A stretch of DNA of 21,158 nucleotides, taken from the NCBI GenBank assembly GCA_018304505.1, contig JAGVWA010000011.1, forward strand, positions 1-21,158, read 5' to 3'. Under the pieces are notes generated by a model. It was given only the letters and a program-made list of their open reading frames with translations, was not told the origin of the DNA and did not search any database. Position numbers and translations under genes: made by a program. Shown piece by piece: positions 10,311 to 21,158 of the stretch (positions are counted from its first letter, which is position 1; each line of letters begins with the position of its first letter). The stretch comes from Nanobdellati archaeon. GTDB taxonomy: Archaea > B1Sed10-29 > JAGVWA01.

Positions 10311-11012
10311 ATGCAATTAAAAGAAACCCTGACGACGATTGATACATACGACAACATTTCTGAGGCAGACCTAGACACTCAGTTTAATCAACCCCTTGAC
10401 TCGTCACATTTGGGAAAATTCATAGACTTGCTGCACGGCAAGCTGATTTTAGACGCGGGGTGCGGCCCCGGCCGCAACTCGAAATATTTCCAAGGACTAG
10501 GCTACGAAGTCACCGGCATCGACGCATCCAAAACCGCGATAGAGTCCGCCAAAAAACGCGTGCCAGGCGTAACGTTCTACAAAATGGATATCCTAAATTT
10601 GGCGTTCAAGTCTCGTCATTTTGACGGCGTCTGGTGCAACGCCACTTTTCTTCACGTGCCAAAAGAGCATGCCCGCGCCGCGTTACAAAGCTTGCGCAAC
10701 GTACTCAAGGAAGGTGGCGTGCTGTTTCTGAGCCTTAAATATGGAAAGAAAAAACCGGGATACGAAACAGAAACGTATGGCCGGCCGCGGTACGAATCAT
10801 ACTACTCAGAAGCTGAAATACAAGACCTGCTGATAAAAAATGGCTTCGAGATCCTAAAAGCAGAAACTGGCACGGAAGCAGAAACGGGCGCAGAGACAAC
10901 CGGCACGGGCACAACCGGCACGGACACAACCGGCACGGACACAACGAACACTGGCCACGTTAACCCAAAACAAAAATGGCTGTACGTCTACGCAAGGCGG
11001 CACACTGAATAA
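10311..11012 (+). CDS. Class I SAM-dependent methyltransferase with a Thr/Gly-rich insert
   Basis: This is a 233-residue Rossmann methyltransferase. Motif I is LDAGCGPGRNSKYF (residues 47-60). The acidic residue after strand 2 is in VTGIDASKTAI. MDILNLAF and FDGVWCNATFLHV form motifs II/III, and VLKEGGVLFLSLKYG is the strand 5/helix region. This resembles COG2226/2227-type small-molecule methyltransferases; the substrate is unknown. Between the last two strands there is a ~31-residue Thr/Gly/Glu low-complexity insert (about 185-215), encoded by a 15-bp DNA tandem repeat. After it the fold resumes with KQKWLYVYARR. The ATG at 10311 is preferred; TTG at 10302 is possible. It is the last gene of the operon. 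Confidence 0.88.
   Translation: MQLKETLTTIDTYDNISEADLDTQFNQPLDSSHLGKFIDLLHGKLILDAGCGPGRNSKYFQGLGYEVTGIDASKTAIESAKKRVPGVTFYKMDILNLAFKSRHFDGVWCNATFLHVPKEHARAALQSLRNVLKEGGVLFLSLKYGKKKPGYETETYGRPRYESYYSEAEIQDLLIKNGFEILKAETGTEAETGAETTGTGTTGTDTTGTDTTNTGHVNPKQKWLYVYARRHTE
10896..10955. repeat. 15-bp in-frame tandem repeat in methyltransferase gene
   Basis: Units are ACAACCGGCACGGGC (10896-10910), ACAACCGGCACGGAC (10911-10925 and 10926-10940), and a degenerate fourth (10941-10955). More degenerate units appear upstream from about 10865. The unit encodes T-T-G-T-G/D. Confidence 0.85.
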
Positions 11013-11024
11013 ATAATCAGTTAA

Positions 11025-11462
11025 TCAATCGTCATTGCGCAGGGCGTCTTTCCCATATTCGTCCTCTAGTGCGCGAATCTGGTCAATGGTATTGTTTACC
11101 ATGTCAACCCTATCATTTCTCACACTTGTTATGGCCTCGATTTGAGCATCTACAATAGCAACGGCGGCATTGCCAGCAACAACATCGGCAACCCTTTCCC
11201 GTACAATTTTACGCGCCATTGCCGTCGCGTGGTCACCCCTTGCACCATCTGTCAAAAGCAGGCTATCGCTGCCTTCAACATCAAGCAAAATCCGCTTGCC
11301 AGGAATGATGTGCGCCTCGTGTATGGGCAAGACTGAGATTTCAATGTATTCCCCCATATCTTTTGCGTCACGGTGTATCTCAGGGTGTTCTACACTAAAC
11401 AGCGCTTTTCGTTTCAGGCCGTCTAGTTGATCTGGATCGTGTATCGTTGTTATGTCCCACAT
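11025..11462 (-). CDS. MWD-family orphan protein 1 (145 aa)
   Basis: I do not recognise this family by name. The product starts MWDITTIHDPDQLDGLKRKA. It then has a central beta-like stretch (AHIIPGKRILLDVEGSDSLLLTDG), a conserved block TDGARGDHATAMARKI and a helical acidic C-terminus. It is soluble, without signal peptide or membrane segment. It is homologous over its length to the next gene: shared MWDI-T--DP--L--L, then LLLTDG--G-HA---AR-I. A TATA box (GTATATAA, 11491-11498) is 29 bp upstream of the ATG, and the promoter-to-start segment is also similar to that of the next gene, so the pair arose by duplication. It converges with the methyltransferase gene, 12 bp apart. Confidence 0.8.
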   Translation of the reverse strand: MWDITTIHDPDQLDGLKRKALFSVEHPEIHRDAKDMGEYIEISVLPIHEAHIIPGKRILLDVEGSDSLLLTDGARGDHATAMARKIVRERVADVVAGNAAVAIVDAQIEAITSVRNDRVDMVNNTIDQIRALEDEYGKDALRNDD

Positions 11463-11490
11463 GCTAATCTTAAGGTTATTGCACCGCGCA

Positions 11491-11500
11491 GTATATAACT
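11491..11500 (-). promoter_or_regulatory. TATA box of MWD gene 1
   Basis: On the minus strand TTATATAC lies 29 bp before the ATG. Spacing and flanking bases (TAACC, then AAGAT, before the ATG) match those of MWD gene 2. Confidence 0.6.
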
Positions 11501-11541
11501 GTTTTGGTTTTCTCGGCTAAATTAAAGCCCGCGGGGATTGT

Positions 11542-12003
11542 TTAATCCTGGTCGTCTTTTTCAAATAAGTCCTCAATGTCATACAAGCTCCGTACACACC
11601 CAACAAACTCATCGGTCCTGTGCACGGCTTCTCTTATTTCTCTCTCCGTTTCGTCGAGCATCTTCCGTTGCTTTTGAATTTCCATAAACTCAAGCGTGCT
11701 GCGCACCTGCTCTTCAAGGGCGCTAGATGCAATTCTCCTGGCGATCTCTGAAGCATGCGCCCCCTCTGGGCCATCTGTCAAAAGCAGGCCGCTTCGTGTG
11801 CTTTCTGAATCATCACCTTGTTCAATCAAAATCCCGTGCGGTAGTAAAACGTGCGCATTTAGAACCGGCCCCTCTTTTGCCCCCAGTTCCGCGTTACCCG
11901 GGGCGATCTCAGAAAGCACCGCTGGGTTATTTGCACTAGCTATTGCTGTTTTTCGCAACCACTCAAGTTTACTTGGGTCGGTTACGGTTCTAATGTCCCA
12001 CAT
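11542..12003 (-). CDS. MWD-family orphan protein 2 (153 aa)
   Basis: This is a paralogue of the downstream gene. It starts MWDIRTVTDPSKLEWLRKTA and shares the block SGLLLTDGPEGAHASEIARRI, followed by a long charged helix (FMEIQKQRKMLDETEREIREA) and an acidic end (DIEDLFEKDDQD). It has no export signal. It has its own TATA box 28 bp upstream (12031-12040), so it is transcribed separately from its neighbours despite the same orientation. The central region GPVLNAHVLLPHGILIEQGD corresponds to the beta-like stretch of the other copy. Function unknown. The conserved LLLTDG and AR-I block is probably the structural core (inference). Confidence 0.8.
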   Translation of the reverse strand: MWDIRTVTDPSKLEWLRKTAIASANNPAVLSEIAPGNAELGAKEGPVLNAHVLLPHGILIEQGDDSESTRSGLLLTDGPEGAHASEIARRIASSALEEQVRSTLEFMEIQKQRKMLDETEREIREAVHRTDEFVGCVRSLYDIEDLFEKDDQD

Positions 12004-12030
12004 CTGATCTTGTGGTTACTGGGTCGTGCG

Positions 12031-12040
12031 GTATATAAAT
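12031..12040 (-). promoter_or_regulatory. TATA box of MWD gene 2
   Basis: On the minus strand ATTTATATAC lies 28 bp before the ATG at 12003. Confidence 0.6.
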
Positions 12041-12081
12041 GTTTGCGCACGGGTTGTATATTTGGATATTAAAATTAGTTA

Positions 12082-12315
12082 TTAGAACACGTCGCCGTCT
12101 TCCCCATATGACTCGCCGTCGTCCGAATCATAATCTGTGTCATCGTCGTCTGGGAAATCGCCATCCAGATCATCATCAGGGAATTCATCGTCAGGATCCC
12201 ACCCCTGGTCTGGGCCTGTGTCAACGTCTGTTTGCTCCAAACGCCTTGCAGCGGCAAACATTTTTTTGGTCTCGTCGGCGCGTGCAGCGTCGTAATGTAA
12301 TTGGATGTCCCACAT
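12082..12315 (-). CDS. MWD-family small protein 3 with Asp-rich tail (77 aa)
   Basis: The start ATG at 12315 gives MWDIQLHYDAARADETKKMF, matching the first four residues of the two neighbouring MWD proteins. After one amphipathic helix (to AAARRLEQTD) the rest is an intrinsically disordered, extremely acidic tail (EFPDDDLDGDFPDDDDTDYD and similar). The LLLTDG block of proteins 1 and 2 is absent, so only the N-terminus is shared. A second ATGTGGG with its own frame occurs 26 bp upstream (12341), a near-duplicate of the start region. A TATA-like CTTTAAAAAG lies near 12350. The tail could bind metal or basic proteins (inference). Confidence 0.65.
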   Translation of the reverse strand: MWDIQLHYDAARADETKKMFAAARRLEQTDVDTGPDQGWDPDDEFPDDDLDGDFPDDDDTDYDSDDGESYGEDGDVF

Positions 12316-12372
12316 AAGATCAACAATCCAATAACCCACATGGTCTTTTTAAAGTTTTCCCTGGTGGCTTCT

Positions 12373-13796: not shown

Positions 13797-15113
13797 TCAC
13801 AGGTATTGCTCTGTGTAAAGTGCCGTGGCATAAATAAGAAACTGACTCATGCTGTTGTTTTCGATTGCCTGGTAGTACCTTTCTTTTGAATCTGCTTCGA
13901 AGGTAACTGGAAAATAATCTCTCGAGATGAGCAAATTGAAAATCAATCTAGCTACCCTGCCGTTGCCGTCTTGAAACGGGTGAATCATAACAAACTGCTG
14001 GTGTACAACAGATGCCAAAATAAATGGGTGCAGCGTGTCCTTGTTTTCCCTGTACCACGTCATCAGTGAACGCATTCTTTCTTTTACGTGCACCGGCGGC
14101 GTTGTGGGGTGGTTTCCAACCACGTTGTAGCCCGCCTTGTACTTGCCGGCGCTTTTGCTGATGTTCTTTTCTATAAAATAGTGCAGATCTTTTATCAGCG
14201 CCCCGTCAAAGTCGCTCGCCGACTTTTGCTGCGCCCACTCAAAAGCCTCTGCGGTATTTATCGTTTCATGCAGGTCCTTAGCTTTTGCGTACCTGGGAAA
14301 GGTTCCTGCGGTGATGTACTTGGTGACTTCTGATGCGGTTAGGGGGTTTCCCTCTATCCGATTTGTGTTGTACACGTACCTATATTTCCGCTGCTTTTCC
14401 AACTCGTCCCTCGTTGCTTCTGGCAAGCTCTTCAGATAATACGCATGCTGTTTAGTGATTTCGCCAATTTTGGCCAGTTGTATCATTATTCTCTCATCTG
14501 GGGCATATGCCCTTGCTTTGTCAAGAAAGTAATCCCCTCCTTGCACATAGTGCTCGTCACACGCCTGCTTTATCCCCTTGTCCGATTGTGCCCCCCGCGG
14601 TTTTCTTGCTGCTGTTTTCTCAAGCTTTTCCAAAAATTCTAAGTACTCATCAGCAGTTACCCTTGGCACAATGTTGAAGTAATCCAACAGTGTTCTTGCT
14701 ATCGTTTCGTTGGCCCGTAGGCTTGCCGTCAGCGGCCTCTTTTTCGTTATCAGCGCGATCTTTAACCTGTGCAACTGCCTTGTCTTTCTTATGCCGTTGA
14801 GGCTAGCGTTTTTTGCAATTTCTAAACTCTTGCTGCCGGCCAGCAGTCTGAGGAGCTTTTCTGTTCCCGGCGAAATCAGGAAGAGGTAGTCCTTTGGTGC
14901 TATTTCCCTTAGCAAAATCAGCTTCCTGGCCTTTTCACTTGCTGGGTTTGCTATGTACGTTTTTCCTTTTTTCGTTATCAGGCCATCCGTCCTAAGTGCT
15001 GCTAGCTGAGTGTACAGGTTCGGCAACGCGGTCTGTGTTTTTTCTGCTAGCTCTTGAGCTGTGAGGCCCTCTGGGCGCTTGAACAAATAACTTAGCACTA
15101 TGTACTTCTTCAT
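13797..15113 (-). CDS. Fic-domain protein with N-terminal winged helix
   Basis: The product has 438 residues from the ATG at 15113, which is 28 bp from a TATA element; an in-frame ATG at 15128 would add five residues. The N-terminus is a winged helix (SYLFKRPEGLTAQELAEKTQ...LRTDGLITKKG). The C-terminal Fic domain has the full catalytic motif HPFQDGNGRVAR (378-389), whose His and GNGR make it competent for AMP or similar nucleotide transfer. It also has an inhibitory-helix-like motif TNRIEGN (250-256) of the S/T-x-x-x-E-G/N type placed before the Fic core, implying self-inhibited activity. The wHTH-plus-Fic arrangement and palindromes in its promoter suggest it controls its own transcription (inference). 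Substrate unknown. Confidence 0.9.
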   Translation of the reverse strand: MKKYIVLSYLFKRPEGLTAQELAEKTQTALPNLYTQLAALRTDGLITKKGKTYIANPASEKARKLILLREIAPKDYLFLISPGTEKLLRLLAGSKSLEIAKNASLNGIRKTRQLHRLKIALITKKRPLTASLRANETIARTLLDYFNIVPRVTADEYLEFLEKLEKTAARKPRGAQSDKGIKQACDEHYVQGGDYFLDKARAYAPDERIMIQLAKIGEITKQHAYYLKSLPEATRDELEKQRKYRYVYNTNRIEGNPLTASEVTKYITAGTFPRYAKAKDLHETINTAEAFEWAQQKSASDFDGALIKDLHYFIEKNISKSAGKYKAGYNVVGNHPTTPPVHVKERMRSLMTWYRENKDTLHPFILASVVHQQFVMIHPFQDGNGRVARLIFNLLISRDYFPVTFEADSKERYYQAIENNSMSQFLIYATALYTEQYL

Positions 15114-15128
15114 GCCTGTATTCTGCAT

Positions 15129-17135: not shown

Positions 17136-18248
17136 TTACTTGTTTGCGAGCACAAACCTGATTTTTTCCTCTAGGTCAAAGACCTGCCCGTTGTCACGCG
17201 AGATTTTTTTCACCACGGGTTCTGTTAGACCCTTCTTGCTCATGATGTGCACGTCGCTCACGAGCGCAAGCCGAGAGAGCTGCTTTGCGATGCTGCCCTT
17301 TGTTTTTCCGGTTTGCTCGGCTATCTGCTCGTACGTCATGGGCTTGTTTGAGTCGCTAAGACACGTGACTATGCTCCACTGCAGCGGCGACAACCTCGAC
17401 TCGAGTTCGTTTATTTCCAGCGACCGGGTGTTTTCTGCGATTTTCTCGTTTGATTCCTTCACAATGCGCACCAGGGTAGAGGTGGGTGATAGCTCCACGG
17501 GCACGCGCTTGTCAAGTTCCGCCAAGGCGTGACTATGCTTGCCAATGATTGAGGCAATGGTGTTGCTGTTGATGCTGTGCTCCTTGTTGTGCGTCTCGTG
17601 CAGTTCGCGGCAGATCTTCTCCGCATTTTTGAGCACGTTCCTGGCGTTCAGGTCGCTCCTGACCGCGAGCTCGTGTAAGGCTTGGCTCGTGAACGGGTTA
17701 ACGCCACCGTCCATGCGCTTTTTAATCAGCTCAATCAAGTCATCTGAGCTGAACTTTGGCAACTCGATGGTGTCTGAAATGCGGTGTTTCATTGAATCAA
17801 CAATGTTTGCGTAGTCAATGGTTGAGAACACCACGGCCTTAAGCACACCAGAGTCGAAGAAAGCCTTGATTTCCTCGGTCTTGTCTTCATCAAGCTTCTG
17901 GATCTCGTCGCAAAGTAGCACGACCTTGTCTTTGCTTGAGTACGCCCCGCCGTCAAGCAGGCCGAGCAGGCGCCGGGGTTTAGTCATGAGCTTAGTCATG
18001 GAAAACTCGCTTGCTGGGGCCTGACTACAGTCATGATAGACCATGTTAAAGTCAGTCCCAAGTTCACCGGCAAGCAGCTTCAGCATCGTTGTCTTGCCAT
18101 TTCCTGCGTAGCCAACAACAGCGGTGATGTTTCCGCTGTGGATGCTTTCCTTAATTTTTTTAAGTTCACTCACCCTACCCACAAACTTTTCTGGGTGGGG
18201 CCTAATGTCGAAGGGGTTTTCCTTGAAACCATACGATTCAAACCACAT
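17136..18248 (-). CDS. Orc1/Cdc6-like AAA ATPase with C-terminal winged helix
   Basis: The 370-residue protein starts MWFESYGFKENPFDIRP, an entry segment typical of archaeal AAA ATPases related to Orc1/Cdc6 and ExeA. Walker A is GYAGNGKT (46-53), Walker B VVLLCDEIQ (109-117, D114 E115) and a sensor-1-like strand KAVVFSTIDYA follows. A helical lid domain follows (DLIELIKKRMDG to ALHELAVRSDLNARN). A C-terminal winged helix (about 290-370; SPLQWSIVTCLS, MTYEQIAEQTGKTKGSIAKQLSRL) would bind DNA. The ATG has GGAG seven bases upstream and a TATA box at 18318-18329, giving a ~50-base leader that contains TAGTCA motifs. It may be a replication initiator or a transcriptional regulator; a true Cdc6 assignment is not secured. 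Confidence 0.88.
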   Translation of the reverse strand: MWFESYGFKENPFDIRPHPEKFVGRVSELKKIKESIHSGNITAVVGYAGNGKTTMLKLLAGELGTDFNMVYHDCSQAPASEFSMTKLMTKPRRLLGLLDGGAYSSKDKVVLLCDEIQKLDEDKTEEIKAFFDSGVLKAVVFSTIDYANIVDSMKHRISDTIELPKFSSDDLIELIKKRMDGGVNPFTSQALHELAVRSDLNARNVLKNAEKICRELHETHNKEHSINSNTIASIIGKHSHALAELDKRVPVELSPTSTLVRIVKESNEKIAENTRSLEINELESRLSPLQWSIVTCLSDSNKPMTYEQIAEQTGKTKGSIAKQLSRLALVSDVHIMSKKGLTEPVVKKISRDNGQVFDLEEKIRFVLANK

Positions 18249-20388: not shown

Positions 20389-20785
20389 TTAGAATGATCG
20401 TGGCACAGGTTGTTGAGCGCCACGCAGTAGGCCTTCCAGCGCCGCGATTTCTGTTTCCAGGACAGCTATAGTGCTGTCGACCTTTACACCAGGCTGGTCG
20501 ATCATTGCCTCAACGGCAAGTTTTCTGGCTGCGCATTCTGCTTCAGCTCTTGTCAGGGTGCCCCACAATTAAATTTCCCCTCTCAGTTGTGCGCCCGTCC
20601 GCGTCGCACAGCAACGCAAAATGGCCTTCGATGCCAACGATTTCCGCTTCAAATTCCTTGCGCAACGTTCGCGCGCCAGGATCATCGCCGTAAGTACTCA
20701 GTTCGTCAACAGCGTTCACCAGCGCCGCTCGCCGTTTAGCAAGCGCTCCGTCGCTTTTGTATTCTAGAATTGGTTCGTTCCACAT
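20389..20785 (-). pseudogene. MWD-family gene 4, interrupted by a one-base frameshift
   Basis: From the ATG at 20785 the frame reads MWNEPILEYKSDGALAKRRA and on to TTERGNLIVG, then stops at 20543 after only 80 codons. Removing one G from the GGGG run at 20561-20564 (minus strand) continues it through TLTRAEAECAARKLAVEAMI and EIAALEGLLRG to a TAA at 20389-20391, a 131-residue protein. The restored part aligns with the LLLTDG/AR-I block and following helix of MWD proteins 1 and 2, so it is a full-length paralogue. The indel may be a sequencing error, programmed slippage or real inactivation. A TATA box (TTTATAAGC) lies at 20830-20839, and a GTGAT ribosome binding site precedes the ATG. Confidence 0.65.
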
Positions 20786-20840: not shown

Positions 20841-20880
20841 TTTTGCAGAATTAGATGTTGTTTTGCAGAATTAGATGGTC
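20841..20880. repeat. 20-bp tandem duplication at the end of MWD gene 5
   Basis: TTTTGCAGAATTAGATG is present at 20841-20857 and 20861-20877. The second copy contains the stop codon of the gene ending at 20871. Confidence 0.8.
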
Positions 20881-21086
20881 ATAGGTATATTTTTTAGGGT
20901 TTGGTAGTAGCGTGGGTCTTCGTCTTCCAACGGCTCTAGCACGTTCAGCATTTCCTTGACAAATTCTGATGGATCTTCTGCTAGCAAGCGTGCAGCCTCT
21001 TCAGCAGTCAGGTAACCAAGGCGATTAGGGTTAATTTTTATAGGTGCTGTTCCGAAGAATCCTGTTCCTGTTCCGCCGTCCCACAT
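20871..21086 (-). CDS. MWD-family small protein 5 (71 aa)
   Basis: The product starts MWDGGTGTGFFGTAPIKINP. It shares the MWD start and the ATGTGGGAC codons with genes 1-3 of the family but not their LLLTDG block. The middle is a helical pair, YLTAEEAARLLAEDPSEFVK and EMLNVLEPLEDEDPRYYQTL, strongly acidic and without export signal. TATA-like elements lie at 21101-21112 and 21121-21128, and GGAGATGA is ~10 bases before the ATG. It is encoded upstream of gene 4 on the same strand. Function unknown. Confidence 0.65.
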   Translation of the reverse strand: MWDGGTGTGFFGTAPIKINPNRLGYLTAEEAARLLAEDPSEFVKEMLNVLEPLEDEDPRYYQTLKNIPMTI

Positions 21087-21158
21087 TAGTTGTCATCTCC
21101 GGTATAATTATACATCGTATCTATAAATAGCTTTTGGTAGACTGCTAGAAGTTGACCC

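Follow-up and report, generated by a model that had tools for sequence, protein, structure and literature searches.

Oomycete RxLR proteins constitute an effector repertoire in which a fixed N-terminal motif is followed by variable bodies, and integron-type cassette arrays are arrays of small orphan open reading frames (ORFs). In the N-degron and N-terminal acetylation classes (NatC-type, PMC4692089) the first two residues of a protein carry information and Met is retained before Trp, while lineage-specific archaeal hypothetical families (PMC9258230) are lineage-restricted and have no assigned function. Here we describe a class of small orphan genes beginning Met-Trp, found in a 21,158-nucleotide (nt) contig of a Nanobdellati archaeon (JAGVWA010000011.1, contig C13 of the source genome, hereafter the window) and elsewhere in the same genome.

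As in RxLR effectors, a short conserved N-terminal signature is shared by many small proteins that evolve fast, are specific to one lineage and cannot otherwise be aligned in their bodies; unlike them, the Met-Trp set lacks signal peptides, has a motif made up of the first two residues, and belongs to a small-genome archaeon, where delivery is putative. With integron-type cassettes the class shares arrays of small ORFs without homologues, but no shared recombination site was seen, and the genes have their own promoters or Shine-Dalgarno (SD) motifs, lie on both strands and have a coding start in common. N-degron and acetylation signals are found across unrelated housekeeping proteins, whereas Met-Trp is confined here to one orphan class. 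The families of PMC9258230 are grouped by whole-protein similarity, whereas the Met-Trp bodies can for the most part not be aligned, which leaves the start as the sole unifying feature.

The source genome (917 kb in 21 contigs, 92.8% complete) was read in stretches totalling 908 kb, nearly all of it. The first-pass annotation of the window had noted five small genes with a shared MWD or MWN start and had proposed that they belong to a family of small orphan proteins, expanded in this lineage, in which the N-terminus is fixed and the bodies vary. Across the genome, ATGTGGRAC starts were indeed commoner than chance (29 versus 13 for the reversed control), also with a TATA-like box 20-36 nt upstream (19 versus 3). 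Reading of the genome stretches showed that the third residue is free, D/E/N/Q being merely favoured; the N-terminus is therefore fixed as proposed, but its signature is Met-Trp, of which MWD and MWN are a subset. A curated census bore out the expansion, giving about 91 Met-Trp genes, a count that may be too high or too low by some because ORF calling was purely mechanical. These genes encode 43-153 amino acids (aa; median 92), occupy 2.9% of the genome bases, lie on 16 of the 21 contigs and start with ATG (85), GTG (5) or TTG (1).

The same bias was observed when the first ATG of each called ORF was taken, with starts not selected by Met-Trp. Trp occupied position 2 in 57 of 410 small ORFs versus 2 of 533 larger ORFs, and was the commonest second residue in the former and among the rarest in the latter. 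Later ATGs within the same small ORFs were followed by Trp in 17 of 935 cases (binomial p ~4e-32 for the first-ATG count against this rate), and TGG was the most enriched codon after SD-ATG (3.0-fold). Codon-frame likelihood, which is biased by the choice of open frames and weakly supports coding, was best in frame for 86 of 86 genes among three frames and for 70 of 86 among six. We regard it as very likely that the repertoire itself is real. Small ORFs number ~45 per 100 kb in the source genome versus ~28-37 in six sampled relatives, a surplus exceeding what the Met-Trp genes by themselves would contribute.

Within the window, all five starts were recovered on the minus strand where the first-pass annotation had placed them (MWDI at 11462, 12003 and 12315, MWN at 20785 and MWD at 21086), and four of the five genes have the start codons ATGTGGGAC in common. 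The genes and their signals are as follows.

11025..11462, minus strand: Met-Trp gene 1, 145 aa, MWDITTIHDP..., TDG-core subfamily, paralogue of gene 2
11492..11498, minus strand: TATA-box-like TTATATA, ~30 nt upstream of the gene 1 ATG
11542..12003, minus strand: Met-Trp gene 2, 153 aa, MWDIRTVTDP..., predicted β-α-β-β-β-long helix
12032..12039, minus strand: TATA-box-like TTTATATA, upstream of gene 2
12082..12315, minus strand: Met-Trp gene 3, 77 aa, MWDI start
12345..12354, minus strand: TATA-box-like CTTTAAAAAG, upstream of gene 3
20389..20568, minus strand: additional Met-Trp ORF, 59 aa, TTG start then TGG, in a different frame from gene 4, whose end it overlaps
20576..20582, minus strand: SD-like GAGGGGA, 7 nt upstream of the TTG start at 20568
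20543..20785, minus strand: Met-Trp gene 4, 80 aa, MWNEPILEYKS...
20871..21086, minus strand: Met-Trp gene 5, 71 aa, MWDGGTGTG...
21097..21102, minus strand: SD-like CCGGAG, upstream of gene 5
21121..21127, minus strand: TATA-box-like TTTATAG, upstream of gene 5

Genes 1-3 form a single same-strand cluster with a TATA-like box upstream of each, and the boxes of genes 1, 2, 3 and 5 lie ~30-40 nt upstream. The second cluster (20785, 21086) reaches the end of the contig, where 99 base pairs (bp) are shared with the start of contig C11; since the first 7.3 kb of C11 hold seven more Met-Trp genes on the same strand, this cluster probably continues into a larger array there. Gene 4 had been taken as broken and, once repaired, as sharing a core with genes 1 and 2. 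The core was found in genes 1 and 2, but the frameshift repair of gene 4 was rejected as unneeded because a separate TTG-TGG start behind an SD-like motif serves the downstream frame, and a pair of overlapping Met-Trp genes of 80 and 59 aa is the better reading of the locus. The C-terminal half of the gene 3 product consists largely of Asp, Gly, Glu and Pro, forming a strongly acidic Asp-rich tail in which other members differ.

The nearest comparison genomes were six of the same order or the same class, none of the same family, sampled in stretches, and none of their 285 small ORFs started with Met-Trp. In four more distant genomes flagged by a pattern scan, Met-Trp was found in 0 of 28 (G099), 2 of 29 (G179), 0 of 4 (G173) and 1 of 10 (G185) small ORFs, figures not comparable to the 57 of 410 above; such scans of relatives are noisy, since TATA and SD signals lie upstream of any genuine start. 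A profile of eight members (A5) detected nothing significant in 394 archaeal genomes, and gene 2 had no homologue in 101 genomes (best outside match E 0.006, noise). Likewise, no homologue of the C15 pair was found in genome contigs and none of the class in viral contigs and phages, and a sequence search of the PDB gave spurious weak matches alone. The literature searched, with incomplete coverage, contained no description of such a gene class. These comparisons, whose nearest genomes are of the same order or class, suggest that the Met-Trp small-protein class is lineage-specific. The geranylgeranyl reductase-like protein of the window is closest (42-50% identity) to proteins of Diapherotrites, Micrarchaeota and other DPANN metagenome-assembled genomes, which indicates a DPANN-like source organism.

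The bodies of the proteins were compared with known families and with each other. Scans of 65 members against each of Pfam-A, PHROGs, NCBIfam and PADLOC returned single weak matches only (E 0.003-0.05, one member each), so the possibility that the bodies belong to known unrelated families, which would have made the shared start a coincidence, found nothing above noise. The proteins are mostly acidic (mean net charge -4.5; 69 of 86 negative). No hydrophobic or transmembrane-like segment and no signal peptide was detected, with 0 of 86 exceeding a mean hydropathy of 1.6 over 19 residues, and the proteins were therefore read as soluble, with no sign of Sec export or membrane insertion. Residue 2 carries 6.6 bits of information, residues 3-9 carry ~0.3-0.6 bits (99% null 0.32), and the signal falls to background after residue 10. 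The preferences at residues 3-9 (N, D, E, then T, N, Q, E) are stronger than in other SD-led genes, and part of them may reflect a general 5′-end bias.

The explanation that we tentatively place first, judging its chances to be somewhat short of even, is that these genes constitute a lineage-specific, fast-diversifying repertoire of ~91 soluble, mostly acidic small proteins bearing a minimal N-terminal Met-Trp recognition tag. They would be expressed from ordinary archaeal promoters, singly or in short operons, and would be unified by the invariant Met-Trp followed by a weak polar or acidic preference at positions 3-9. According to the MetAP rule, Met is not removed before large residues (PMC4692089), and since Trp is bulky the proteins are expected to expose Met-Trp. 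This terminus could be read by one common putative partner, such as a chaperone, a sorting or export factor, or a protease adaptor, which would hold the start of each protein constant and leave the body free to change quickly, much as effector or recognition repertoires do. A shared terminus-reading partner appears the most economical account. We infer the constraint on the protein and the tag mechanism, whereas the family itself is well supported.

The strongest competitor, which we nevertheless consider unlikely, is a single anciently duplicated family in which Trp2 is fold-critical, packs into the core and is the last position to survive extreme divergence, with no partner reading the terminus. 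Paralogy is evident in parts of the set. Genes 1 and 2 are paralogues (28% identity, E 1e-10, core LLLTDG..G.HA...AR.I), and an alignment of eight joins them through a recurring core, TDG..G.H....R, to dispersed genes on C9, C11 and C15. Nine homologous pairs were detected at E<0.001, some across different contigs, and the preference for I/T/V at position 4 is that expected of a first strand. On the side of the tag, paralogues with identity as low as 28% retain Met-Trp, and in one homologous pair (C19:2839 and C19:1786, 35% identity) one copy starts with ATG and the other with GTG while Trp is kept. When 82 Met-Trp proteins were searched with phmmer against the 1030 other ORFs of the source genome, no homologue without Met-Trp was found, the one match (C14:36155) holding an overlooked Met-Trp start. 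Against common ancestry, however, only 17 of the 91 members have a detectable relative at E<0.001, in every case another Met-Trp gene, and in a comparison of 65 members no column other than M1 and W2 is invariant, mean column identity being 8%.

The predicted structures also argue against a single family. The model of gene 2, built from the eight-row alignment (predicted local distance difference test score, pLDDT, 75), contains strand 1 (residues 2-7), a helix, strands 2-4 and a long helix, with Trp2 in strand 1. In contrast, the model of C20_43271, built without an alignment (pLDDT 87), is a two-helix hairpin with Met-Trp in the coil preceding helix 1. The bodies thus appear to comprise at least two predicted folds, and the different contexts of Trp2 favour a tag over a fold remnant, although two models are a thin basis. 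In structure searches gene 2 gave weak matches (Foldseek best E 0.04 against the PDB and 0.4 against BFVD), and no reliable fold emerged, the weak likeness to the PLD/NucT fold (best non-helical VIA match, Z 4.8, to NucT) being within noise.

By analogy with Met-hydrophobic N-degrons, Met-Trp could instead act in this archaeon as a degradation signal or an acetylation-dependent stability tag, so that proteins of the class would be short-lived or only conditionally stable. Eukaryotic NatC has Met-Trp among its canonical substrates, and the Met stays before the large residue (PMC4692089), and a degron would fix the N-terminus whatever the body. There is, however, no evident reason why such a signal should be restricted to small orphan proteins, and this reading seems improbable. 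It is weakened further in that we know of no archaeal N-recognin for Met-Trp.

The first-pass annotation had also raised the possibility that the conserved element is DNA or RNA at the 5′ ends of leaderless messages, a proposal that fared poorly. In this case messages with no leader or a short one would carry ATGTGG at the 5′ end to tune initiation for the class, and the TATA-to-ATG spacing of ~25-45 nt does imply short leaders in many lead genes. However, no shared upstream element was found beyond ordinary TATA and SD signals. TATA-like boxes precede 27 of 61 lead or solo genes versus 3 of 25 followers, and SD-like motifs precede 19 of the 25 followers and 56 of 86 genes overall; with about two thirds of the genes carrying an SD-like motif, many are not leaderless. 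Codon 3 is synonymously free, its usage (GAC:GAT 9:5, AAC:AAT 7:4) matching the ~2:1 of the genome, GTG starts keep TGG, and large genes with the same signals lack it. We therefore consider an initiation signal highly improbable. A constraint acting at the protein level on the N-terminus fits these patterns best, given the varying start codons, the freedom of codon 3 and the at least two predicted folds.

The least probable account, which we give very little weight, is that a mobile or viral system carries these genes as cassettes or cargo and that its site of insertion or recombination provides the common start: the clusters of small orphan ORFs are array-like, but the flanks contain no repeated sequence beyond TATA-like pieces (no 14-mer common to the 150-bp flanks of more than two genes, though recombination sites can be divergent), the genes are spread over most contigs and in the window lie next to cellular genes, and no match was found in viral contigs, phages or PHROGs.

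Several points weigh against the recognition tag. Trp has a single codon, so protein and nucleotide constraint at codon 2 are not fully separable, and the GTG starts still share TGTGG. The 91-gene census, unlike the first-ATG test, took Met-Trp itself as its criterion, and some of its genes may be spurious products of mechanical calling. Trp2 may have a structural role within one deeply diverged family, the models representing two members, of which gene 2 has modest confidence and C20_43271 lacked an alignment. Two residues are also very short for a targeting signal, and the partner, the expression and the localisation of the proteins are putative.

A more specific form of the recognition tag, rather doubtful at present, is that Met-Trp serves a DPANN-type archaeon as a minimal address by which dedicated machinery for sorting or export recognises ~90 rapidly diversifying small proteins, whose plausible targets are a partner cell, a host cell or the viruses of such a cell. 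Because the genes are united solely by residues 1-2, homology-based annotation cannot detect the class and each member looks like an unrelated orphan. Should the terminus prove to be a tag, it would open a direct route to the sorting, export or control of lineage-specific proteins in small-genome archaea. At present that question can for the most part not be answered, since genes of this kind lack homologues. N-terminal dipeptide bias among small ORFs is a simple test that can be applied to every genome for similar hidden repertoires.

Other features of the window and the genome were also noted. A Fic/DOC-family protein with an N-terminal helix-turn-helix (13797-15128, minus strand; Pfam E 7e-19) lies between the two Met-Trp clusters. 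An AAA ATPase of 370 aa (17136-18248, minus strand) starts Met-Trp (MWFESYGFKENPF), one of only two large ORFs to do so, and is probably unrelated to the small family. The end of a methyltransferase ORF (10860-10960) encodes a low-complexity Thr-Gly-Thr/Asp repeat (TGTGTTGTDTTGTDTTNTG) from short tandem DNA repeats. Finally, contig ends overlap by 94-99 bp in four cases (C13/C11, C13/C5, C15/C17 and C19/C18), which suggests that these contigs are neighbours in the assembly graph.
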